From assembly GCA_951813075.1 (NCBI GenBank), contig OX638343.1, positions 1,234,149 to 1,298,148 on the forward strand: a DNA stretch of 64,000 nt. Reading direction: 5' to 3'. Origin of the DNA: Arenicellales bacterium (GTDB lineage Bacteria; Pseudomonadota; Gammaproteobacteria; Arenicellales; JAJDZL01). The notes beneath the pieces were generated by a model. It saw only the letters and a list, made by a program, of their open reading frames with translations, searched no databases and was not told the DNA's origin. Each line of letters starts with the position of its first letter. Position 1 is the stretch's first letter. Shown here one piece after another: positions 42,184 through 56,023 of the stretch. Made by a program: the position numbers and the translations under genes.

Positions 42184-44547
42184 TTAGGATGCCTGCGCAT
42201 CGCGAATCGCCTGCCAGACCCTATGCGGGGTTGCAGGCATGTCAAGATTGGTTACACCGACTTCCGACAGTGCGTTCAAAACGGCGTTGATGACCGCTGG
42301 CGGCGCACCGATTGCACCAGCTTCACCACAGCCTTTCACGCCCAATGGATTGTGCGTGCACTCGGTTACTGTCGTGTCCACACTAAAAGATGGCACATCC
42401 GTCGCACGCGGCATGGTGTAGTCCATGTATGAACCTGACAGCAATTGACCGGTATCGTCATAGTTGCAGCCTTCCAGCAATGCCTGACCGATACCCTGTA
42501 CCAGTCCTCCATGCACTTGTCCCTCGACGATCATCGGATTGATCACCACGCCGAAGTCATCGGTTGCGTGGAAACTTGCAATTTCCACCGTTCCGGTATC
42601 CGGGTCAACTTCAACCTCGCAAACATAAGTACCCGCCGGAAACGTGAAGTTCTTCGGATCATAGAATGCTGTTTCCTCCAATCCAGGTTCAAGTTCCTCA
42701 AGCGGATAGTGATGGGGAACATACGCTGCCAAGGCAATTTCGCCGAATGCCTTGGCCTTGTCGGTTCCAGGTACAACGAACTGACCGTTCTCAAACTCGA
42801 TGTCCGATTCGGAAGTCTCCAGCAGATGTGCAGCAATTTTCTTGCCTTTCGCAACAACTTTGTCGATTGCGTTGACTATGGCAGTTCCCCCGACAGCGAT
42901 TGATCGCGAACCATAAGTTCCCATGCCAAATGGAACCCTGTCAGTATCTCCGTGGACGATGTCGATACTATCGAAATCTATCCCGAGTTTCTCCGATACA
43001 ACCTGTGCAAAAGTTGTCTCATGGCCCTGCCCGTGTGAGTGAGAACCCGTCATCACACTGACCGAACCTGTCGGGTTGACTCGAACTGTTGCGGCTTCAT
43101 AGAGCCCGGCCCGGGCACCCAGCGAACCTACAACATTGGACGGCGCAATTCCACAAGCCTCGATATAGGACGAAATTCCAATACCGCGCAATTTACCGGC
43201 TTCCTTTGACGCCGCCTTACGGTTGCCAAATCCGGCATAGTCAGAGTTCTCAAGTGCTTTGTCCAGACTGGCTTCATAGTTGCCTGTGTCATAGATGAGC
43301 GCCACCGGCGTCTGATACGGAAACTCACTTGGTTGAATAAAGTTACGCCGCCTGATATCCGTAGCGTCCATACCCATATCATCAGCAGCAACCTGAACAA
43401 TTCGCTCCAGCAGATAAGTCGCTTCCGGACGCCCGGCACCGCGATAGGCGTCAACCGGTACCGTATTGGTAAAAACCGCTTTCACCTCGCAGTAGATGAC
43501 TGGAGTCGAATACTGACCAGCAAGCAATGTGCCGTGGAGATATGTCGGTACGCAAGGTGCAAACGTAGATAGATAGGCACCCATATTTGCAAGCGTACTT
43601 GCACGCAGTGCAAGAAATTTTCCATCTGCGTCCATCGCCAACTCTACTGTCGTGACATGATCCCGTCCATGCGCATCGGATTGAAACGATTCGCTTCGAT
43701 CTGCTGTCCACTTAACCGGGCGGTTTATCTGACCAGCCGCCCAAGTAACAATAATTTCCTCCGCGTAATGGAAAATCTTCGATCCAAATCCACCACCGAC
43801 ATCAGGAGCATGAATCCGCAACTTGTGTTCCGGGAGCCCCAGTACGAAAGCACCCATCAGCAAACGGATCACATGTGGGTTCTGACTCGTGGTATGCAAG
43901 GTGAACTGACCAGTCGCCTGATCATAATCACCGATTGCACATCTTGGTTCGATCGCATTCGGGATCAAGCGATTGTTTACCAGATCCAGTCTAGACACAT
44001 GGTGAGCATTGGAAAATGCTTCGTCAACTGCATCCTTGTCACCCAATCCCCAGTCATAACAGACATTTGTTCCGACATCATCGTGAACGCTCGTCGCTCC
44101 ATCGGTTACCGCAGCCTGCATGTCAACCACTGCATCAAGCACATCATAATCGACAAAGATGCTCTCAGCCGCATCTCTCGCCTGAGTGCGAGACTCTGCC
44201 AGCACGACAGCAACCGGATCACCTACATGACGAACCTTGCCCTCCGCCAGCACTGGATGTTTCGGTTCCGCCATTGCAGAACCATCCTTGCTGTGGACCT
44301 GCCATCCGCAGGGAATGCCTCCAACTTCGGCCATATCCTCCGATGTGAAAACAGCAACCACACCCTCGCCTGCTCTTGCCGCGGATGTATCGATTGACCG
44401 AACCGCCGCGTGCGCATGAGGAGAGCGCAGGATGTATGCGTGAACCTGATCAACCAGGTTCATGTCGTCTGTATACTTGCCTGCCCCCTGAACGAAACGC
44501 AGGTCTTCTTTTCGGCGTACAGAGGCGCCAATTCCAGTGTCACTCAT
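42184..44547 (-). CDS. coxL: CoxL-like molybdopterin large subunit, form II
   Basis: The 787-residue protein is a xanthine oxidase-family catalytic subunit: VGGGFGSK near residue 250, [28 protein letters not shown] and the C-terminal [20 protein letters not shown] with the catalytic Glu. The active-site loop reads AYRGAGR (residues 367-373; 43429-43449), which defines form II (OMP) enzymes. True CO dehydrogenases of form I have AYxCSFR. CO oxidation by form II is doubtful, and other aldehydes or N-heterocycles are possible substrates. The complete coxDEG set nevertheless accompanies it. Confidence 0.92.
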
Positions 44548-44549
44548 CT

Positions 44550-45023
44550 CTACACCTCGCTCATGGCCTCAGCACCGGCCTGAATGGATTTGACAATGTT
44601 GTGATAACCGGTGCAACGACAAAGATTGCCCTCCAGCCATTCCCGAATCTCCCGTTCTGAGGGGTTCGAGTTCACATTCACCAGATCAAGTGCGCTCATA
44701 ATCATGCCTGGTGTGCAGAATCCACACTGCAGACCGTGATTTTGGCGAAACGCCTCCTGCATCGGATGAAGTTGTCCGTCAATTGCCAGACTCTCGATGG
44801 TCGCGACTTCCGCACCGTCAGCCTGCGCTGCCAGCATGGTACAGCTTTTGACAGATTTGCCATTGACATGTACAACACAGGCGCCACACTGACTGGTGTC
44901 GCAACCGACATGCGTCCCGGTCAATCGTTGATCAACCCGCAGAAAGTCTACCAGCAATGTCCGCGGATCAACCTCAGCTGATACGCTCTTGCCATTGACA
45001 ATCATTGATACAGTTACACTCAT
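44550..45023 (-). CDS. coxS: CoxS-like [2Fe-2S] subunit
   Basis: The 157-residue protein has the plant-type ferredoxin cluster in [19 protein letters not shown], a fourth cysteine in SCTML, and the C-terminal cluster in [13 protein letters not shown] and CRCTGY. The ATG at 45023 was chosen because GAGGAG stands eight bases before it; the longer frame to 45146 lacks homology. It transfers electrons between the molybdenum site and the flavin subunit. A promoter-like sequence lies about 190 bases upstream. Confidence 0.95.
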
Positions 45024-45208
45024 AGAATTTCTCCTCTCGCTTATTGGCTGATCATCGAATATCGAATGTATTATTGTTGTGATATATCCAGATTTTGTCT
45101 GATCGGCACTTCGTAAATATTTCACATGTCCGGATTCGGTCGACAACCCACTTCGGAAATTTGCAGGCTGACCAACGATGCGAATCAGGATACTTTCCGC
45201 TGAATTTC

Positions 45209-46485: not shown

Positions 46486-47784
46486 CTATCGGTATTCCAG
46501 CTTTACCGGTAGCCCGTCGCGCGGTTGCAGGACAATTCGGCCGACGGGCTGAGCTACATAATCATCCGGCGCTCGAAGTCGCCAGCGCTGGGCGACGGAA
46601 ACCAGAATCAAATGGGCCTCCTGCAAAGAAAATTTCGCCCCGATGCAAATTCTCGGCCCGCCACCAAATGGCAGATAGGCAAATCTGTGTCGACCCGTGT
46701 TGTTATCCGGCGCAAAGCGTTGCGGAAGAAAGGCTTCAGGTTGATCCCATAAATCCGGAGCGCGGTGAATTTGCTGAATATCGATTTCCACCACTGAGTT
46801 TTCAGGAATCTTTGTCCCATTAATCTCATCTCGCGAAATCGCTTGACGGGAGATGATGGGAACGACTGGATAAAATCGCATGGTTTCCTGGACCACCTGC
46901 AAGCAGTACGGTAGATTTTCCAAGTCTGACAGTTCAGGCATCCGACCATTCAACACTGTGTCAATTTCCCGGTGCAATTTGGCTTCAACTTCCGGATGAA
47001 CGTGCAGCGCATAAAACACCCAGGTCAGCGCGGTAGCGGTCGTTTCAAAGCCAGCGATGAAATACGACCGAACCTCATCCTTCAATTGGGAGACTGTCAG
47101 AGTGCTGCAAGTCGTTTCGTCGACCGCTGACATCAGCAACCCAAGCAAGTCTCGTTTTTGCTCACCGCTTTGACGTCGCTCGAAAATTATTTCCCCGGCC
47201 GCATCATCAAGTAGTTTTCTGGACGAACGCAAACGAAGGTTTGAAATTCGGGGAACCCAGGTCGGCATGCCAAGAATATCCATCATCCTAATTCGTACCC
47301 GGGCAAACTTGCGAACCACATCCGCGATTTCGGTGTGGAATCTTTCATCATTTTCTCTGGAAAACATCGCTCTCATGATGATTCTCAGTGTCACATCGGA
47401 CATTTCGGACAGGACATTGATCGTTCGGTTCTTTTGCGAAATTCGATCCCACTTTTTCAATAAACGATCCGCTTCGGCAATCATCAGCGGGGCAAACCCC
47501 TCGACATTCTTTACAGAAAACGCCGGCGCAGCAAGACGGCGCTGAAGACGCCACCTTTCGCCTTCACTGGTGAACAGAGCATGTTTGCCAAGTGGCGGTT
47601 CAAGCAACAATCGTGTCATGAGCGACTTTCGATAATTCTGAGAGTTGTCCAGCAAGATGTGTTGAACGACTTGCGGGTCGGAAGTCATTGCCCAAACACG
47701 CAACCAGCTGCGGTTGAATTGAAGTCTGTCCCGATTGATATCTTGCGTTTCTATAGAATATTTTTTGGATGAGATTTGATTCAC
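46486..47784 (-). CDS. Cytochrome P450, N-terminally short
   Basis: The 432-residue protein has the I-helix AGFETTATALTW, the ExxR motif QETMRFYP and the haem-binding loop FGGGPRICIGAKF, so it should be a working monooxygenase core of the CYP4/CYP102-like bacterial type. Translation starts at GTG (47784) and an in-frame TAG directly precedes it. The first recognisable family residues (RLQFNRSWLRVWAMTSDPQVV) come about 20 residues in. Usual relatives have some 30-50 more residues before this, covering the entry region. It may be naturally short or truncated. No ferredoxin gene is adjacent. It is convergent with the acetyltransferase gene. Confidence 0.9.
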   Translation of the reverse strand: MNQISSKKYSIETQDINRDRLQFNRSWLRVWAMTSDPQVVQHILLDNSQNYRKSLMTRLLLEPPLGKHALFTSEGERWRLQRRLAAPAFSVKNVEGFAPLMIAEADRLLKKWDRISQKNRTINVLSEMSDVTLRIIMRAMFSRENDERFHTEIADVVRKFARVRIRMMDILGMPTWVPRISNLRLRSSRKLLDDAAGEIIFERRQSGEQKRDLLGLLMSAVDETTCSTLTVSQLKDEVRSYFIAGFETTATALTWVFYALHVHPEVEAKLHREIDTVLNGRMPELSDLENLPYCLQVVQETMRFYPVVPIISRQAISRDEINGTKIPENSVVEIDIQQIHRAPDLWDQPEAFLPQRFAPDNNTGRHRFAYLPFGGGPRICIGAKFSLQEAHLILVSVAQRWRLRAPDDYVAQPVGRIVLQPRDGLPVKLEYR

Positions 47785-48296
47785 CTACGAGAACAACATT
47801 TTTGGCTTGATCTGTGCCGGACGATTACCGCACCCTACCCGACTCCGAATATAGACGATGGAATTTTCGAGATCGTGGTCACGTCAGCCGACTTTACAAA
47901 AAGAATTCGTAGTTACTTGGTTAAAGTCCCATCAAGACCCATGACATCGGAATTCATCCGCACCACCTGAACTTTGACATCGGGCTCGCAATTCGGACTC
48001 CTGCAACTTTGCTGGACGTCTGAATCTCGCTTCCCAACTGATTGTCGACACGAGTTAAATTTTACCACCGCGGCATTTCTTCACTTTCAGTCAATCCAAG
48101 CGCTCATGCCACTTTCGGCTAATGCTGGTCGCTCAAATTATCTTCGTGGGGCGATTTGATACAATCAAACAGAATGTAGTGGATTTCGCTGAATATCAAA
48201 ATGCTGAATTTCTGTCGCCCTTCGAATTGAATTGCTTTATTTGCGGTATTGATTCGTAGTTGAGGTCAGAACCTGCGCTTTAAGAAAGGAGTTATT
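47785..48296. other. Spacer upstream of the ion-channel operon
   Basis: No gene is recognised, including no missing 5' part of the P450 in any minus-strand frame. The right end carries the AAGGAG ribosome-binding site (48286-48291) of the MscS-like gene. Confidence 0.45.
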
Positions 48297-49136
48297 ATGG
48301 ATAAGCTTTACGATTGGACTACGCCTCTTCTGACTGCCGCTATCGACTGGTTCGAAAGATTCATTGATTACCTGCCCAATCTGGTCGGCGCCATTTTCCT
48401 GCTTCTTCTGGGATGGTTAGTCTCCCGAATAGTAAGAACTATTGTGGTCAGACTGGTTAAAGGTTTAGATCGATTTTCGGGGAAGGTCAAATTTCTTGGA
48501 GCCGACTCCAGTTCAACACTTAGCGTATCGTCTGCAAATTTCATTGGAAGCATTCTTTACTGGTTTACATTTCTGATTTTCGTAACGTCGGCAGCCAGTC
48601 TGTTGGGAATGAATATGTTTGCTGGCTGGCTCAATAAATTAGTTGACTATCTGCCAAACATCCTTTCAGGTGTGTTGATCGTCGGCGCTGGCGTCATTTT
48701 CAGCAACTTGATCTATCAGGCTGTTCTCACGGCAAGTGTCGGCATAAGCGACTCGCAACGCACGATAATTGCCCGGGGGGCACAAATTCTGGTTCTTCTG
48801 ATGCTGGTTCTAATCGGTGTCAACCAGATCGGGATCGATATCACCGTCATTGTTATTGTGATGTCGGTTGGAATCGGTGCCCTGGTCGGCGGGCTGTCAA
48901 TCGCATTCAGTCTTGGTGCCAGAACTTTAGTCAGCAATCTGATCGGTATACGCTATCTGAATCCCGACTATCGGGTTGGTGAACTGATCCGAGTTGGTGA
49001 ATATGAGGGAACGGTTTTGGAAATCACTTCTGTCTCAATCGTACTGGACGGTGAGCAAGGCCGTGTGACAATTCCAGCTCGCATTCTGTCCGAGCAGCCA
49101 AGCATCTTGGTCAAGCGGGAGAGCAACAATGTCTGA
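48297..49136 (+). CDS. MscS-like mechanosensitive channel with conserved TM-helix repeats
   Basis: The 279-residue membrane protein contains two conserved TM-helix repeats (YLPNLVGAIFLLLLGWLVSRIV and YLPNILSGVLIVGAGVIFSNLI), another membrane pair and an MscS-type pore helix region (IGALVGGLSIAFSLGARTLVSNLIGI). A short beta domain (GELIRVGEYEGTVLEITSVS) follows, and the large C-terminal cage domain of MscS is missing. AAGGAG stands five bases before the ATG. It overlaps the next gene by eight bases, forming a three-gene operon with two MgtE-related genes. Confidence 0.88.
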   Translation: MDKLYDWTTPLLTAAIDWFERFIDYLPNLVGAIFLLLLGWLVSRIVRTIVVRLVKGLDRFSGKVKFLGADSSSTLSVSSANFIGSILYWFTFLIFVTSAASLLGMNMFAGWLNKLVDYLPNILSGVLIVGAGVIFSNLIYQAVLTASVGISDSQRTIIARGAQILVLLMLVLIGVNQIGIDITVIVIVMSVGIGALVGGLSIAFSLGARTLVSNLIGIRYLNPDYRVGELIRVGEYEGTVLEITSVSIVLDGEQGRVTIPARILSEQPSILVKRESNNV

Positions 49137-49986
49137 ACGCATGCAGTTTGTAAAGTATTTCATTGAGTCCCAGAGTCAGGATGCAGCGAGAGCAATCGAA
49201 GAACTGCCCGCTGACATCATGGGGAGTCTCCTTGAGGAATTACCGGATGCTACCGCACTCACCGCATTGACCGCAATGCTGCCCTACCGCGCATCGGTCG
49301 GAATTCGCGCCCTCGACCCATCAACAGCAATCAGTTATCTTTCCAGACTGCCCCCCAATAGTGCGGCTTCAATGCTGAGATGTATCGACAAGGAGCGACG
49401 CGATGAGTTGATTCGCCAACTACCGAAACCCAAGTCTCTGCTCATTGCAATGACGATGAATTACTCGCAACAACTTGTCGGCGCATGGATGGACCCGGAT
49501 ATTAAACCGCTACCGGTGAATACCACGGTAGCTGATGCGCGCAATCGAATTGAGTCGCAGAGCCAAAAATACAACATTGCATTTACAGTCAACAGCGATC
49601 AGACCATCCAAGGTGCTGTTTCCGTGGTAGACCTTCTGCAGTATCCCGACGAATACACTTTGATCACGACGCTGATCCAAGAAGGTGTTGGTGCAATATC
49701 CGCATCATCCAGACTGAAACGGGCGATCCACGATAGCCGATGGGGCAGCAGTGAGGTGCTGCCAGTTGTCGATCGACAAAACAAGCTGATCGGCGCTATT
49801 CGTTTCATCGATCTGATAACAGCACTCAACAGCCAAGAGGAAAGCGAACGTAAGAATGTTGGTAATGTCGAATTTCTTGGATTCACCGAGTCCTACTATG
49901 TTGGTCTGGCAAATCTTGTTTCCATGACATTAGCCAGCAATTACCAAAACAAGGAGTCAATCTCATCGGAGGACTTACTGAAATGA
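49129..49986 (+). CDS. Soluble MgtE_N-CBS domain protein
   Basis: The 285-residue protein has the superhelical MgtE N-domain (AARAIEELPADIMGSLLEELP, then ALDPSTAISYLSRLPPNSAA) followed by CBS-type segments (VNSDQTIQGAVSVVDLL and VLPVVDRQNKLIGAIRFIDLI). The MgtE membrane domain is absent. In MgtE these domains sense Mg2+ and ATP and close the pore. As a free protein between an MscS-like channel and a full MgtE it is probably a regulatory partner. This is inference from domain content and overlapping genes. Confidence 0.85.
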   Translation: MSERMQFVKYFIESQSQDAARAIEELPADIMGSLLEELPDATALTALTAMLPYRASVGIRALDPSTAISYLSRLPPNSAASMLRCIDKERRDELIRQLPKPKSLLIAMTMNYSQQLVGAWMDPDIKPLPVNTTVADARNRIESQSQKYNIAFTVNSDQTIQGAVSVVDLLQYPDEYTLITTLIQEGVGAISASSRLKRAIHDSRWGSSEVLPVVDRQNKLIGAIRFIDLITALNSQEESERKNVGNVEFLGFTESYYVGLANLVSMTLASNYQNKESISSEDLLK

Positions 49987-51302
49987 ACGCGAATCAAAAT
50001 GTGGAAACAGCGCTGGCAGCTCTGACGGAGAAATTTTTCAAGGAAGCGCCCAGCAGCGCAGCGTACAGACTAGAGACCATCACTGACGAAGCGGCTGCGG
50101 AAATCTTGCAGCGAATTCCGGTTGCAACAGCATCAGCAGTTTGGGAGATGCTCAATCCTCATAATGGTGCACAAATTCTTCATCACCTCCCAGTTGAAAT
50201 CGCCAGTGAGGTTCTTTCTGGCATCGACCCAGGACGAGCATCGTCCATTCTCGCGTTGGCAGACCCGCGGACAAAAGAATCTGTTCTTTCCAAGGTTGAT
50301 GAACCAACAGCAAACAGAATAAGCGAATTGATCGACTATCCACACGACAGTGCCGGCGGTCTTATGGATTCACGCGTGCTGACATTTCGCGGTGAAACGA
50401 CAGTGCAAGAGGCAAAACATATTCTCCGCAATGCAGGACTGCGAACTCCGGTGAACGAACTGCGGATTGTCGATGATCATCGCATGTTCAGATCGCTTGT
50501 TGATATCAAGGATTTCGCTCTGGCCGAACCGTTAACCAGATTGGACAGTATTGCGAAAGGCATTGAAGCAGTTGTGAAGCCAATGACCACTCGGGAAGAG
50601 ATCATCGAAAAAATGGAAGAGTTTCGACTGGAAGAACTTACTGTGATCGACGATGACGGACGTATTGTAGGCGTCATCCGATATGCCACACTGATGGATA
50701 CCCTCAAGGAAAGTGTGTCACTTGACATTCAGACCATGGTCGGTGCAAGTAAAGACGAAACTGCCAATTCCAGTATCGGGTTCGCGGTTCGGAAGCGAAT
50801 GCCTTGGCTTCAGATCAATTTGCTGACCGCTTTTCTGGCTGCGTCTGTGGTGGGATTATTTGAAGGGACAATTGCAAAATTCACCGCGCTGGCTGTACTG
50901 CTACCGGTTGTCGCCGGACAGTCGGGTAATGCCGGTGCACAAGCACTGGCTGTCACTATGCGCGGCCTTTCTTTACGCGAAGTGAATCTGCGAGACTGGC
51001 TTAAATTGGCCATCAAGGAAGGTAACGTCGGATTCTGGAATGGAATTTGCATTGCAATCGTGTGCGGAATCGGTGTCTATCTCTGGAGTGGAACCTTCGG
51101 ACTGGTTTTGGTGATCGTATCGTCGATGATCATCAGCATGGTACTGGCTGGACTTGCCGGTGCCTTGATTCCCATGGGACTGATGCGAATAGGACAGGAT
51201 CCGGCGGTCGCATCCTCAATAGTTCTGACGACTGTCACGGATATCGCAGGATTTTTCTCGTTTCTGGGTATTGCGACTCTTTTGGCAGCAATGCTGGTCT
51301 GA
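49983..51302 (+). CDS. mgtE: Magnesium transporter MgtE
   Basis: The 439-residue protein has the full MgtE order: N-domain (ILQRIPVATASAVWEMLNP), CBS pair (DSAGGLMDSRVLTFRGETT, VIDDDGRIVGVIRYATLMD), then a membrane domain with about five helices beginning RKRMPWLQINLL, including VLLPVVAGQSGNAGAQALAVT, which lines the Mg2+ pore. Its ATG overlaps the preceding stop as ATGA. It imports Mg2+ across the inner membrane. Confidence 0.93.
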   Translation: MNANQNVETALAALTEKFFKEAPSSAAYRLETITDEAAAEILQRIPVATASAVWEMLNPHNGAQILHHLPVEIASEVLSGIDPGRASSILALADPRTKESVLSKVDEPTANRISELIDYPHDSAGGLMDSRVLTFRGETTVQEAKHILRNAGLRTPVNELRIVDDHRMFRSLVDIKDFALAEPLTRLDSIAKGIEAVVKPMTTREEIIEKMEEFRLEELTVIDDDGRIVGVIRYATLMDTLKESVSLDIQTMVGASKDETANSSIGFAVRKRMPWLQINLLTAFLAASVVGLFEGTIAKFTALAVLLPVVAGQSGNAGAQALAVTMRGLSLREVNLRDWLKLAIKEGNVGFWNGICIAIVCGIGVYLWSGTFGLVLVIVSSMIISMVLAGLAGALIPMGLMRIGQDPAVASSIVLTTVTDIAGFFSFLGIATLLAAMLV

Positions 51303-51369
51303 CATCGTTGTCGAAACCCGCCAACTGACTCAGCAGTCGAACCTGAAAGCAACCCGGTTCTCTGCGATT

Positions 51370-52299
51370 TCAGGTATTGGGATGAAATATTTGGCCGATG
51401 CAGGCTGGGGCGTTCAACTTGACGCGAGTCGAATGGCGGGAAATGAGCACCAAAACCAATATGGTCACCAGATACGGTAGCATTGATAGGATCTGGGCGG
51501 GAATCTGAACTCCAATACCCTGCAGATGCAATTGCAGAATGGTCACCGAACCGAAAAGGTAGGCACCAATGATGACACGGCCCGGTTTCCACGTCGCAAA
51601 TACGACAATAGCAAGAGCAATCCAACCGCGCCCGGCTGTCATATGCTCAACCCACATGGGCGTGTAAGACAATGAAAGAAACGCTCCGCCGAGCCCTGCC
51701 ATTGCTCCACCAAACATGACAGCCAGAAAGCGGATCTTGACGACCGCATATCCGATTGAATGCGCTGCGTCGTGCGATTCACCCACGGCACGAAGCACCA
51801 GACCCGGTTTCGTATGATTCAGAAACCAGTGCACGGCAAATGCCATTATCACAGATAGATAAATCAGCACATCCTGTGAGAACAACAAGGGTCCCAAAAG
51901 GGGTATATCACTTAGAAACGGCAGACTGAGAGTCGGTAACTTCTCAATCGGCAGGCCGATGAAGGGAATTCCAATCAGTGAACTCAAGCCGATTCCAAAC
52001 AATGTAAGAGCCAGGCCCGATGCAACCTGATTGGCCAGAAATATCAGGGTAAGCAACCCGAACAACATTGACATCAGGACACCTCCGACAGCACCAGCGA
52101 TTATTCCAAGCATCCAGCTGCCTGATGTCAGGGCACCGACAAAAGCACAGACCGCACCGATCAGCATCATACCTTCGACACCGAGATTGAGTACGCCGGA
52201 CTTCTCCGCCACCAGTTCCCCAGTTGCCGCAAGCAATAGCGGTGTCGCCGCACTGACAACAGTCAGCATGATCAGTTCAACGGTAGTGATCGCTTCCAT
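51370..52299 (-). CDS. Nucleoside/purine-type ABC transporter permease 2
   Basis: The 309-residue membrane protein belongs to the BPD_transp_2 family used by nucleoside and purine importers (NupQ/YufQ type): ELVAEKSGVLNLGVEGMMLIGA near residue 30 and AVGESHDAAHSIGYAVVKIRFLAV. It is the last gene of the leftward purine operon; the initiating ATG touches the stop of the other permease gene. It should import a purine or nucleoside for the xanthine pathway encoded upstream. Confidence 0.85.
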   Translation of the reverse strand: MEAITTVELIMLTVVSAATPLLLAATGELVAEKSGVLNLGVEGMMLIGAVCAFVGALTSGSWMLGIIAGAVGGVLMSMLFGLLTLIFLANQVASGLALTLFGIGLSSLIGIPFIGLPIEKLPTLSLPFLSDIPLLGPLLFSQDVLIYLSVIMAFAVHWFLNHTKPGLVLRAVGESHDAAHSIGYAVVKIRFLAVMFGGAMAGLGGAFLSLSYTPMWVEHMTAGRGWIALAIVVFATWKPGRVIIGAYLFGSVTILQLHLQGIGVQIPAQILSMLPYLVTILVLVLISRHSTRVKLNAPACIGQIFHPNT

Positions 52300-53387
52300 C
52301 AGTCAGTCCTCGCCCGATCAAATTTGCGCGAAGTGCGCCATTCGACCCGGTAGTTGATAAGCAAATCACTCGCCAGCAAGAAGAAAAGCAGCATTCCCTG
52401 AAACACTCCGGCAATTCCAAGTGGCAACCCCATCTTGATCTGAACAAATTCCCCACCAAGGTAAGAAAGCGCCAATACCAGACTGGCGAACAGAATTCCT
52501 ATTGGATGCAGCCGACCGAGAAAGGCGACGATTATGGCGGAAAAACCATAACCCGGTGAAATGATCGGTTGCAGCTGACCGATCGGCCCAGCCACTTCGA
52601 TTATTCCAGCCAAACCAGCCAGACCACCGGCACCGAGCAAGACATACCAAATCACCCGGTTGAAATGAATTCCTGTGTAGCGCGCAGCATTGGGCGCGAG
52701 ACCCGCAACCCTGACCTGAAATCCAGCGACCGTTCTCGAAAACAGTAGCCACACCGATAGCACTACCAATAGCGCGATGATTGTTCCACCATGCAATCGT
52801 GTTCCACTAAGTATGCCGGGAATCACGGCCGCATCCTGAAAAACTACAGATTCTGGGAAATTGTAACCGCCCGGGTCACGCCACGGTCCGTGCACCAGTG
52901 TGCTCAAAACCAGTACAGCAACGTAGACCAATAACAGGCTCGTCAGAATTTCATTTGTATTCATTTTTGTTTTCAGGAAAGCAGGTATGGATGCCCAAGC
53001 CATGCCTCCCAGAACACCAAGAACAAGCATCGCCGGCAGCATCAGCGCATTGTCTGATTCCGGAAAATAGACAGGTAATGCACTTCCCACGATTGCTCCG
53101 ATGGTCAGCTGTCCTTCTGCACCGATATTCCAGACATTGGCTCTGAATCCCATCGATAATCCGACCGCGATCATTGCCAGCGGAGCCGCTTTTATAAACA
53201 GTTCGCTGACACCGTACAAATCACTGATTGGTGCCAGAAAGAAAGTGTAAAGACTCTTCAATGGCGGGTAACCAAGAAGTGAAAAGACGACACAACCGGC
53301 AATCAGGCTCAAAACCAAAGCTATGATCGGTGTCAGCCATGTCATCAACCGAGAATGTGTCTGTCTGGCTACCAGTCTAATTGGCAT
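52299..53387 (-). CDS. Nucleoside/purine-type ABC transporter permease 1
   Basis: The 362-residue membrane protein (NupP/YufP type) shows GFRANVWNIGAEGQLTIGAI, ILTSLLLVYVAVLVL and YGFSAIIVAFLGRLHPIGILF. The ATG at 53387 was chosen; it overlaps the ATPase gene by 11 bases, while the longer frame to 53492 would extend further into it. Together with the other permease it forms the channel. Confidence 0.85.
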   Translation of the reverse strand: MPIRLVARQTHSRLMTWLTPIIALVLSLIAGCVVFSLLGYPPLKSLYTFFLAPISDLYGVSELFIKAAPLAMIAVGLSMGFRANVWNIGAEGQLTIGAIVGSALPVYFPESDNALMLPAMLVLGVLGGMAWASIPAFLKTKMNTNEILTSLLLVYVAVLVLSTLVHGPWRDPGGYNFPESVVFQDAAVIPGILSGTRLHGGTIIALLVVLSVWLLFSRTVAGFQVRVAGLAPNAARYTGIHFNRVIWYVLLGAGGLAGLAGIIEVAGPIGQLQPIISPGYGFSAIIVAFLGRLHPIGILFASLVLALSYLGGEFVQIKMGLPLGIAGVFQGMLLFFLLASDLLINYRVEWRTSRKFDRARTD

Positions 53388-54915
53388 TCCCCACATCCTG
53401 ATTGAGTTCGACCTGAGCCCCACCCATAAGTAAACCAATTGACTGTGCTGTAAGGCTGGAAACCGAATAGGATTCGGACAATTGACCTGCAAACATCACC
53501 GAAATTCGATCACACAATGCCATCAGTTCATCCAAGTCTTGTGAAATCACAATAACCGCGGCACCATTTTCAGCGAGATCAAGTAGGGATTGATGAATGG
53601 CAGCCTGTGAACCTGCATCGATCCCCCAGGTGGGTTGTGACGCAATCATGACCGCAGGATACTGAAGGATTTCGCGGCCCATCAGGAATTTTTGTAGATT
53701 ACCACCTGACAGACTGCTTGCGTCAACGTGAATACCCGAATGTCTGACGTCGAACTCATCGCAGATTTTTTGTGAATAGCTGCGTGCGTTGGAGAAATGC
53801 ATCAACAGATTTTTACTCAATCCATACTTTTCGTGGCCGCTTAAAAATACATTCTCGGTCAGCGACATGTTGCCAACGACACCATGTCCCAGCCGTTCCT
53901 CTGGAACGCTCGCCAGACCCAAGTCCCGTCTTGCCTGCACGCCCGCTCGGCCGCAATCCACATTGTCAATACTCACTGCTGAATCCTGATCAGCCAACAC
54001 CTCACCGGACAGCATTCCCAAAAGTTCTGTCTGTCCATTGCCCGCGACGCCCGCGATACCGAAAACCTCACCTGTGCGAACGTCAAAACTGATGTCTTTC
54101 AGCGAAATATTGCGCTCACTTTCTGCCGCACGGCAAAGGTTTCGCACTGAAAACACAACTTGACCGGTTTTTTTCGCTTTCGCGGTAGGCGGCTTCAACG
54201 ATCTACCGATCATCAATTCAGCGAGTTCCTTGGTGTCAACCTGCGTTGGATCGCATTGCGTGACGACCTTGCCCTGACGAAGAATGGTGGCGTGGTGACA
54301 GAGTACGCGGATTTCTTCAAGCTTATGGCTGATATACAGAACTGCACAACCCTGGTCGGCCAGTCTTCTCAGAACCGTAAACAATTTGTCTGCTTCCTGC
54401 GGAGTCAGAACCGATGTCGGCTCATCCATAATCAGAAGTTTGGGAGACTGAAGCAGGCAACGCACAATCTCAACGCGTTGACGTTCACCGACCGACAATG
54501 AGAACACATCGCGATCGGGGTCTAATTCCAGACCGTAAGCATCGGAAACGGAACGGATCTCATCGGAAAGTTCCACCCCTTTTTTTCTTGACGTGACAGC
54601 CAGTTCAATATTCTCGCGAACTGTCATCGCCTCAAAGAGTGAAAAATGCTGAAAAACCATGCCAATCCCCATCTGTCGCGCGTGTGCCGGACTCGAGATT
54701 TTCGCCGGTTCACCTTGCCAATAGATAGTACCTGCGTCAGCTGAGTAGTATCCGTAGATAATCTTAACCAAGGTGCTCTTGCCGGCACCATTCTCACCGA
54801 GCAATGCGTGAATGTTGCCCTCGGCGATTTCAAAATCAATCGAGTCGTTTGCGACCACACCAGGGAAAGCTTTGGTTATGCCGCGCATTGACAACAGTGA
54901 ATTGCTCGCGGGCAT
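53377..54915 (-). CDS. Nucleoside/purine-type ABC transporter ATPase (tandem)
   Basis: The 512-residue protein has two fused ATPase domains, as in NupO/YufO. The first has Walker A LLGENGAGKST, signature LSVGERQR and Walker B LIMDEPTSVLTPQEADKLF. The second has a degenerate Walker A (GVAGNGQTELLGMLSGE) and LSGGNLQKFLMGREI. The ATG at 54915 gives the family's usual start. No BmpA-type binding protein occurs in the window, so it must be encoded elsewhere or beyond the operon. Confidence 0.88.
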   Translation of the reverse strand: MPASNSLLSMRGITKAFPGVVANDSIDFEIAEGNIHALLGENGAGKSTLVKIIYGYYSADAGTIYWQGEPAKISSPAHARQMGIGMVFQHFSLFEAMTVRENIELAVTSRKKGVELSDEIRSVSDAYGLELDPDRDVFSLSVGERQRVEIVRCLLQSPKLLIMDEPTSVLTPQEADKLFTVLRRLADQGCAVLYISHKLEEIRVLCHHATILRQGKVVTQCDPTQVDTKELAELMIGRSLKPPTAKAKKTGQVVFSVRNLCRAAESERNISLKDISFDVRTGEVFGIAGVAGNGQTELLGMLSGEVLADQDSAVSIDNVDCGRAGVQARRDLGLASVPEERLGHGVVGNMSLTENVFLSGHEKYGLSKNLLMHFSNARSYSQKICDEFDVRHSGIHVDASSLSGGNLQKFLMGREILQYPAVMIASQPTWGIDAGSQAAIHQSLLDLAENGAAVIVISQDLDELMALCDRISVMFAGQLSESYSVSSLTAQSIGLLMGGAQVELNQDVGNAN

Positions 54916-54958
54916 GGCTATAAACTCATTTGGATCTCGCGTGCGTACGGGAACGGAT

Positions 54959-56023
54959 TCAGGATCCGGTTGAATCCAATTTTCGAGGGATGCCAGTCCG
55001 GTCAGACAACTCCACATCCAGAACGCGCTGACGCACCTCAAGCAATTTTGCCGCAGTCGACATCGCGATGACAGCCGGATGCTTGCCCTTTATGGTTCCA
55101 ATGCCGATGGGACATTCCAGTCTCTTGAGCGTAAATGGATCGATGCCATCGGCGACAAATCGCTTCTCAAATCTTCTTCGTTTGGTTTCTGATCCGATCA
55201 GGCCCAGCCATCCAAAATCTCGCTGTTTGAGAATTCCAAGGCAGATTTCGTAATCAAGTCCGTGACTGTGAGTCATAACGGCGTAGAAAGTTCCAGGCTC
55301 CTGGCTCATCAATATTTCCTTCAGGCTAACCTGCTCAATCACGGCGACATTGTCCGGGACATTTTCCGGAAAGATGTCGGCACGTTGATCCACCCAGTCG
55401 ATCCGAAACGGCAGATCGCCGAGCAAGCTGACCAGTGCTTTGCCGACATGCCCGGCGCCAAAGAGCACAACTTTGGTCGGCAACTCATCCAATCGGGTGA
55501 TAAACCACTCAGAAACACTATCGCTCACCAGACACGCGTTCGGTACCGCAGTACGAAGGAGATTATTTGTCGCGCGGCGAAACAATTCGGGCACTTTTCC
55601 CCAGTCCGACTTGTTATTCAGAACGATAGGCGAATGTTCACCTTCGAGCGGACTCAGAAGAAATTTGGTCGTCCGATTGTTTTGGCCTCTGAACTCATGA
55701 GCACAGTTCGTCAAATCTTCCGCTGAAAGAATTTCAAATAGCAGACGTACTGCACCGCCGCAACACTGACGCATCTCAATTCCCAAGCCGAACAATTCAG
55801 TTTCTCGATGGGAATCGGTATTAATTTGTAGAATTTTCCGCGCTCGACGGATCGCAGTGTACTCAAGATTGCCGCCACCAATGCTCTCATACTCATCCGA
55901 TTCGGTCACCAACATTCGTGCGCCGACTTCGCGCGGGGCAGATCCGATCACTTCGATCACGGTGATCGTCACAAATTGTTCACCACTCTGAGCGAGCGAG
56001 GTGAATTGGCGCGTCCAACTCAC
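54959..56023 (-). CDS. xdhC: Xanthine dehydrogenase accessory protein XdhC
   Basis: The 354-residue protein is a full-length XdhC. The N-terminal domain shows VIEVIGSAPREVGARMLV, GGGNLEYTAIRRARKIL and RQCCGGAVRLLFE, with the double Cys that transfers sulfur. The C-terminal Rossmann domain shows VVLFGAGHVGKALVSLLG and LGLIGSETKRRRFEKRF. It inserts the sulfurated cofactor into XdhB. It overlaps xdhB by four bases, in contrast to the split XdhC of the cox cluster. Confidence 0.92.
   Translation of the reverse strand: MSWTRQFTSLAQSGEQFVTITVIEVIGSAPREVGARMLVTESDEYESIGGGNLEYTAIRRARKILQINTDSHRETELFGLGIEMRQCCGGAVRLLFEILSAEDLTNCAHEFRGQNNRTTKFLLSPLEGEHSPIVLNNKSDWGKVPELFRRATNNLLRTAVPNACLVSDSVSEWFITRLDELPTKVVLFGAGHVGKALVSLLGDLPFRIDWVDQRADIFPENVPDNVAVIEQVSLKEILMSQEPGTFYAVMTHSHGLDYEICLGILKQRDFGWLGLIGSETKRRRFEKRFVADGIDPFTLKRLECPIGIGTIKGKHPAVIAMSTAAKLLEVRQRVLDVELSDRTGIPRKLDSTGS

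Follow-up and report, generated by a model that had tools for sequence, protein, structure and literature searches.

The stretch analysed here (the window) is 64,000 nucleotides long and comes from the genome of an Arenicellales bacterium (contig OX638343.1, positions 1,234,149 to 1,298,148 of the forward strand). Our subject is a set of three consecutive genes within it, which we named MSC, SENS and MGTE (Table 1) and which encode, respectively, an MscS-like membrane protein, a soluble protein paralogous to the cytosolic domain of MgtE, and a divergent MgtE. The MSC-SENS-MGTE triplet is a conserved, co-inherited module across many proteobacterial families, and we read MGTE as an MgtE that lacks its built-in Mg2+ brake. 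The open reading frame (ORF) coordinates bear out the overlaps of 8 and 4 bases that a first-pass annotation, made from the letters alone, had reported for the three genes, and the strand is exact; such overlaps do not by themselves imply the fixed stoichiometry that had been read from them.

Table 1. Features of the triplet locus in window coordinates (aa, amino acids; AF2, AlphaFold2; pLDDT, predicted local distance difference test score).
Feature	Position	Strand	Description and basis
AAAGGAG, likely MSC ribosome-binding site	48285..48291	+	read from the sequence; inference
MSC ORF	48297..49136	+	279 aa; CmpX-type cage-less MscS-like membrane protein; PF05552 x2, PF00924
MSC best conserved-TM-helix stretch, residues 17-56	48345..48464	+	PF05552
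MSC beta domain, residues 220-266	48954..49094	+	PF00924, weak
SENS ORF	49129..49986	+	285 aa; soluble MgtE cytosolic-domain paralogue; MgtE_N + CBS
MSC/SENS 8-base overlap	49129..49136	+	ORF coordinates
SENS MgtE_N, residues 16-113	49174..49467	+	Pfam; helical, AF2 block with pLDDT ~70-92
SENS CBS pair, ~residues 117-240	49477..49848	+	Pfam and TtMgtE profile match; AF2 confidence low
SENS C-terminal helix, residues 254-271	49888..49941	+	AF2, confidence low there
MGTE ORF	49983..51302	+	439 aa; divergent MgtE subfamily; PF01769, MgtE_N, CBS
SENS/MGTE 4-base overlap, ATGA	49983..49986	+	ORF coordinates
MGTE MgtE_N, residues 23-122, without the D91/D92 pair	50049..50348	+	Pfam, site comparison
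MGTE CBS pair, ~residues 131-241, without D247 of the CBS2 Mg2+ motif	50373..50705	+	Pfam, site comparison
MGTE D420, equivalent of TtMgtE pore residue D432, invariant	51240..51242	+	alignment

The first-pass annotation had suggested looking for the triplet in other genomes, and its co-occurrence turned out to be strongly conserved. SENS was found at 1e-15 in 9 of 100 relatives' genomes, namely that of the window, four of five genus mates and four members of one other family of the order, and all eight loci other than the window's have the order MSC-SENS-MGTE on one strand. At 1e-25 the SENS profile matched 36 of 369 genomes of the class, some of these matches being MgtEs; the regions taken from this search comprise 23 with a free SENS, six other hits and an extra 3-kb piece of genome G345. 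Twenty of the 23 are clean consecutive triplets, the other three being those of G398, G252 (where the contig ends after SENS) and G345. In G398 (locus L064) MSC lies 1.96 kb upstream and a 578-aa gene (L064:3136-4872), by reading acetyltransferase-like plus histone-deacetylase-like, stands between it and SENS, the sole insertion seen in the module. In G345 (L071) the MSC and MGTE frames are broken around an intact SENS, which may reflect a damaged locus or an assembly error. Of the six other hits, four are MgtEs without a triplet, and two (G223 and G444) belong to triplets whose SENS is weaker.

A search with the MGTE profile, which used no gene order, matched 27 of the 369 class genomes, from 24 families, at 533-677 bits, the other class matches listed scoring at most 354; across the phylum, 6 of 398 genomes (the window's included) reached at least 537 bits and all others at most 364. 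Together these make up 32 different genomes. In 31 of them SENS immediately precedes MGTE, being cut by a contig end in one (G234), and in the 32nd, G252, it sits on another contig, at its end. MSC directly precedes SENS in 30 of the 32, the remaining two being G398, with its inserted gene, and G234, where that position is not visible; no triplet that is visible whole lacks MSC. The recurrence of the triplet in all eight relatives' loci and in nearly all of the 32 genomes indicates that it is not due to chance. A named carrier is Pseudoalteromonas sp. NC201, with the triplet on a 1.24-Mb replicon. SENS was found at 1e-10 in 2 of 72,556 plasmid records, both from Pseudoalteromonas, and in the second record, from P. 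piscicida, the triplet is judged from adjacent hits only. A related-locus search among genome contigs returned only two ordinary Bacteroidota MgtEs.

Of the 27 class carriers, 22 have one or more additional MgtEs (at 1e-85), so the triplet is mostly an addition to, rather than a replacement of, ordinary MgtE. Indeed, all four genus mates that carry the triplet also have an ordinary MgtE, while the triplet-free mate (G003) has an ordinary MgtE alone. Among loci without a triplet, L076 and L079 carry two adjacent ordinary MgtE genes, and a single internal TAG interrupts the ordinary MgtE matches of four small class genomes from two families (G208, G241, G324 and G448), a possible case of recoding or decay.

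The spacing between MSC and SENS falls between -23 and +8 bases (most commonly -8) in 31 of 31 measured loci, while SENS and MGTE overlap in 23 of 31 and are 16-48 bases apart in the remainder. Both counts leave aside the window and the extra loci from the MGTE search, as well as G345 and, respectively, G398 and G252; since start codons were picked by profile position, single values may be off. The flanks of the triplet vary in strand, size and distance, and the ten neighbouring genes that were scanned share no common family apart from a CNNM/CorC-type gene; a wider conserved operon, which we considered, is thus ruled out. This gene (CNNM, CBS and CorC_HlyC domains, a Mg2+ transporter type) lies on the same strand directly 5' of the triplet in two loci from different families (L144:2482-3900, 49 bases away, and L147:4540-5895, 15 bases away). 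The ratio of nonsynonymous to synonymous substitution rates (dN/dS) was 0.03-0.28 in 20 computable comparisons from seven locus pairs, one MGTE pair being saturated, and purifying selection acts on each of the three genes. On account of this selection and of its constant position, we reject the idea that SENS is a remnant or pseudogene.

The middle protein had been described beforehand as an MgtE gating domain (N-domain plus CBS) without a membrane part, and Pfam confirms this. A domain scan of 33 SENS sequences at E 0.001 found MgtE_N in 32, CBS in 30 and the MgtE membrane domain in none. Searches of solved structures, whether with the single sequence or the profile, lead to the cytosolic part of TtMgtE, which the profile of the 33 sequences matches at 3e-41. 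The C-terminal helix (residues 254-271) is moderately hydrophobic in most relatives, and hydropathy gives no clear membrane helix; in the AF2 model the N domain alone is confident. SENS evolves fastest of the three proteins, its mean distance being 2.14 where MSC has 1.45 and MGTE 0.84, and is the least conserved, with a mean column identity of 36% compared with 45% and 59% for the other two. The Pfam FliG middle domain also matches 6 of the 33 sequences, and the string MgtE_N occurs in two flagellar-motor papers (PMC11870540, PMC13023049).

MGTE has the full MgtE architecture, with MgtE_N, CBS and the membrane domain PF01769 (9e-32), and searches of solved structures with the single sequence and with a profile both lead to TtMgtE over the full length, the profile match scoring 269 bits; at 224.9 bits it narrowly misses the NCBIfam mgtE equivalog cut-off (232.75 bits). 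Under the subfamily profile, the window's MGTE reaches 645 bits and ordinary MgtEs 364 at most. The equivalents of the pore residues D432 and D418 are present in 31 of 31 triplet MGTEs, and we predict that the protein conducts Mg2+. Changes in the transmembrane region relative to TtMgtE include G327S, T336A and E311A.

The classic example of a channel shut by a cytosolic Mg2+ sensor of its own is ordinary MgtE. We compared 34 ordinary MgtEs, 31 triplet MGTEs and 33 SENS, in TtMgtE numbering (the 2yvx chain index minus 23), at a list of positions which we take to be the Mg2+ sites of MgtE. Position D91 is acidic in 34 of 34 ordinary MgtEs, 0 of 31 triplet MGTEs and 7 of 33 SENS; the corresponding figures are 34/34, 2/31 and 9/33 for D247, and 33/34, 8/31 and 7/33 for D250. 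An unbiased scan likewise picks out D91, D92, D247 and D250: of 31 cytosolic positions with a conservation of 85% or more among ordinary MgtEs, 11 (91, 92, 131, 186, 190, 219, 244, 247, 248, 250 and 251) drop below 35% in triplet MGTE. Thus MGTE itself has lost the Mg2+-sensing motif, a loss that the first-pass annotation had not seen. At 244 (R), 248 (L) and 251 (A), the most frequent replacement is the same in SENS as in triplet MGTE. Our numbering places all six of the ATP contacts that the excerpted text of PMC5529423 names on the expected letters. The contacts Y170, D188, N203 and F227 are not kept in SENS, and since such contacts are poorly kept in triplet MGTE and ordinary MgtEs too (F227 in 1 of 34 ordinary MgtEs), nothing follows on nucleotides.

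A quick-method tree built from 99 rows of the N and CBS region places SENS in one clade (33 rows) with a Shimodaira-Hasegawa-like approximate likelihood-ratio (SH-aLRT) support of 93 and triplet MGTE in another (31 rows, 97), with the ordinary MgtEs on one side (92). On this tree SENS and triplet MGTE are each of single origin, and when the root is assumed to lie among the ordinary MgtEs they are sisters, as after one duplication.

For the first protein, a channel without the MscS cage and with the conserved TM-helix repeat had been proposed, and both traits held up. The E. coli MscS model is matched over its positions 23-164 of 286 only, so that the cage, which is the C-terminal part, is absent; MSC ends 13 residues past the beta domain. 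PF05552, found twice in MSC, matches 30 of 30 family members, the beta domain (PF00924) matches 14 of 30 at E 0.001, and no domain beyond the beta domain, hence no cytosolic alpha/beta cage, was found in any of the 30. The MscS pore helix and beta domain are recognisable (by Pfam and by profile against solved structures), and searches of solved structures with the single sequence and the profile lead to MscS-type channels. A single-sequence AF2 model has five long helices and short strands at a pLDDT of 64; a fold search with it gave nothing below E 0.001, with MscS at ranks 36 and 43 only, and at this low model confidence it carries no weight.

The 26 best class matches to the MSC profile, at 199 bits or more, all come from triplet carriers, and matches at 197 bits or less lie outside triplets, except for the broken copy of G345. 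We class MSC as CmpX-type on its PF05552 repeats, its length of about 275-280 aa and its sequence kinship with CmpX-type proteins, judged here by the protein of locus L165 (197 bits with the MSC profile) rather than by the CmpX of Pseudomonas aeruginosa itself; the L165 protein has CorA and extracytoplasmic function (ECF) sigma genes as neighbours; a protein of this type may well respond to tension. An ECF sigma gene adjoins the nearest non-triplet relatives in L165, L166 and L167, and in L168, the locus of another such relative, a sigma domain lies within an ORF that also matches another family. The CorA gene of L165 is the single such case.

We therefore put forward a reading in which the three genes would encode one co-inherited membrane module. 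MGTE would be an MgtE-type Mg2+ channel that kept its pore and lost the acids for closing at high cytosolic Mg2+, and SENS would be a duplicate from the same stock that lost its membrane part and now docks, as a detached gating subunit, on the cytosolic domain of MGTE, taking over part of its control. MSC, as a CmpX-type, tension-responsive protein without a cage, would supply a second input through SENS, so that control of MGTE would have passed to SENS and probably to MSC too, and Mg2+ flow would track the envelope or osmotic state and not free Mg2+ alone. We give this regulatory complex a probability of roughly 45%. A bolder version, in which the detached gating copy occupies the site left free by the absent cage of the MscS-like protein and also shuts or opens the brake-less channel, would make the triplet a tension-controlled Mg2+ complex, with the CorA pairing of Pseudomonas as a parallel; we consider it unlikely.

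Several observations weigh against the regulatory complex. Triplet MGTE largely retains E216, E217, E255 and D259, which are mostly gone from SENS, and may thus still depend on Mg2+ to some degree. The 34 ordinary MgtEs of the site comparison include near-duplicates and come mainly from the best-scoring ordinary hits. No gap separates the MSC scores from those of CmpX-type proteins (199 and 197 bits), and MSC is therefore not a sharply separate subfamily. Across 29 loci, the evolutionary distances of MSC, SENS and MGTE are correlated (r 0.65-0.70; 0 of 2000 permutations) in a calculation that ignores the species tree. Finally, conserved operons can reflect shared regulation only.

Among the alternatives, it is conceivable, if on the unlikely side, that SENS regulates MGTE alone and that MSC is an independent osmotic valve, co-expressed because osmotic shock and Mg2+ loss coincide. 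The canonical MgtE cytosolic domain works as a dimer, and a SENS that is a paralogue of that domain in MGTE and shares its replacements at 244, 248 and 251 fits a homologous interface. However, the MSC-SENS junction is the tighter one (31/31 within -23 to +8, with SENS-MGTE distances of up to +48), and MSC is present in every triplet visible whole. CmpX regulates the activity of the hybrid kinase PA1611 in P. aeruginosa, according to the available part of PMC10965496, so the membrane family of MSC may have a part in signalling. MSC could then be a non-channel, tension-sensing scaffold that passes the envelope state to SENS and MGTE as CmpX does with PA1611, and the ECF sigma genes beside its nearest non-triplet relatives agree with this; yet its MscS pore helix and beta domain are recognisable, and we find such a scaffold improbable.

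The first-pass annotation had proposed that SENS could gate MSC as a free Mg2+/nucleotide sensor and so join osmotic and Mg2+ control. The domain make-up of SENS, its tight coupling to MSC and the absent cage, whose place a docking partner could take, speak for this, but most SENS lack the Mg2+-sensing acids (D91 in 7, D247 in 9 and D250 in 7 of 33) and SENS evolves fastest of the three, unlike a conserved ligand sensor; a sensor role is not supported, and we regard this proposal as distinctly improbable. That the proteins share transcription only and act separately, SENS being a degenerate remnant of an mgtE duplication, is very improbable indeed, since SENS, although the least conserved of the three, has an open frame in every whole triplet and even in the damaged G345 locus, a dN/dS of 0.06-0.28 and a constant position over 24 class families.

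Around the triplet in the window, the following genes, identified by reading, are apparently unrelated to it: a cytochrome P450-like gene upstream (46486-47784, minus strand), a nucleoside-type ATP-binding cassette importer downstream (51370-55041, minus strand) and molybdenum hydroxylase-like genes (42184-45146). No Mg2+ riboswitch was found, there being no Rfam match at E 1 in window positions 47000-52000 and, in 13 carrier loci, none above the gathering score other than tRNA. A search for a sigma-70-like promoter in 47780-51500 found none, a result that is uninformative.

A widespread, sensor-less MgtE subfamily linked to a soluble gating paralogue and a CmpX-type protein suggests an undescribed connection between Mg2+ flow and membrane state. 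We found no description of the triplet in the literature searched, which mostly did not extend to subscription journals and is thus weak evidence of novelty. The triplet opens a way to test whether Mg2+ flow in bacteria is coupled to membrane tension, and it may give partners, and hence a role, to cage-less MscS-like proteins.

The closest known channel is TtMgtE (PDB 2yvx, 2zy9, 5x9h), to which MGTE aligns over its full length with the D432 and D418 pore equivalents invariant and whose cytosolic domain SENS resembles; unlike TtMgtE, triplet MGTE has lost D91/D92 of the N domain and D247/D250 of CBS2 and has constant upstream partners. The CorC/CNNM proteins are also CBS-bearing Mg2+ transporters, but their membrane domain is unrelated and they stand beside the triplet in two loci only. 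With the MscS family (E. coli MscS, the 171-aa short channel 9sdb, MSL1) MSC shares homology in the transmembrane and beta domains; it differs in its N-side conserved-TM-helix repeats and the lack of a cytosolic cage, and among its structure matches only 9sdb and its variants are equally short at the C-end. In the KtrA/TrkA systems, a cytosolic regulatory subunit is encoded apart from its channel, KtrB/TrkH. SENS resembles KtrA/TrkA as a separate subunit; however, those have RCK domains and serve K+ channels, without MgtE_N/CBS. The nearest precedent is the cmaX-cfrX-cmpX(-sigX) operon of Pseudomonas, which, as described in the available part of PMC7641640, likewise pairs a Mg2+ channel gene with a CmpX-type MscS-like gene around a small gene. 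There, the channel is CorA-type and its gene comes first, cfrX encodes 84 aa without a known function, and the operon is followed by an ECF sigma gene, whereas the partner in the triplet is an MgtE. The layout of L165 matches this Pseudomonas cmaX-cfrX-cmpX-sigX region, again as far as PMC7641640 was available, in its CorA, CmpX-type and ECF sigma genes.

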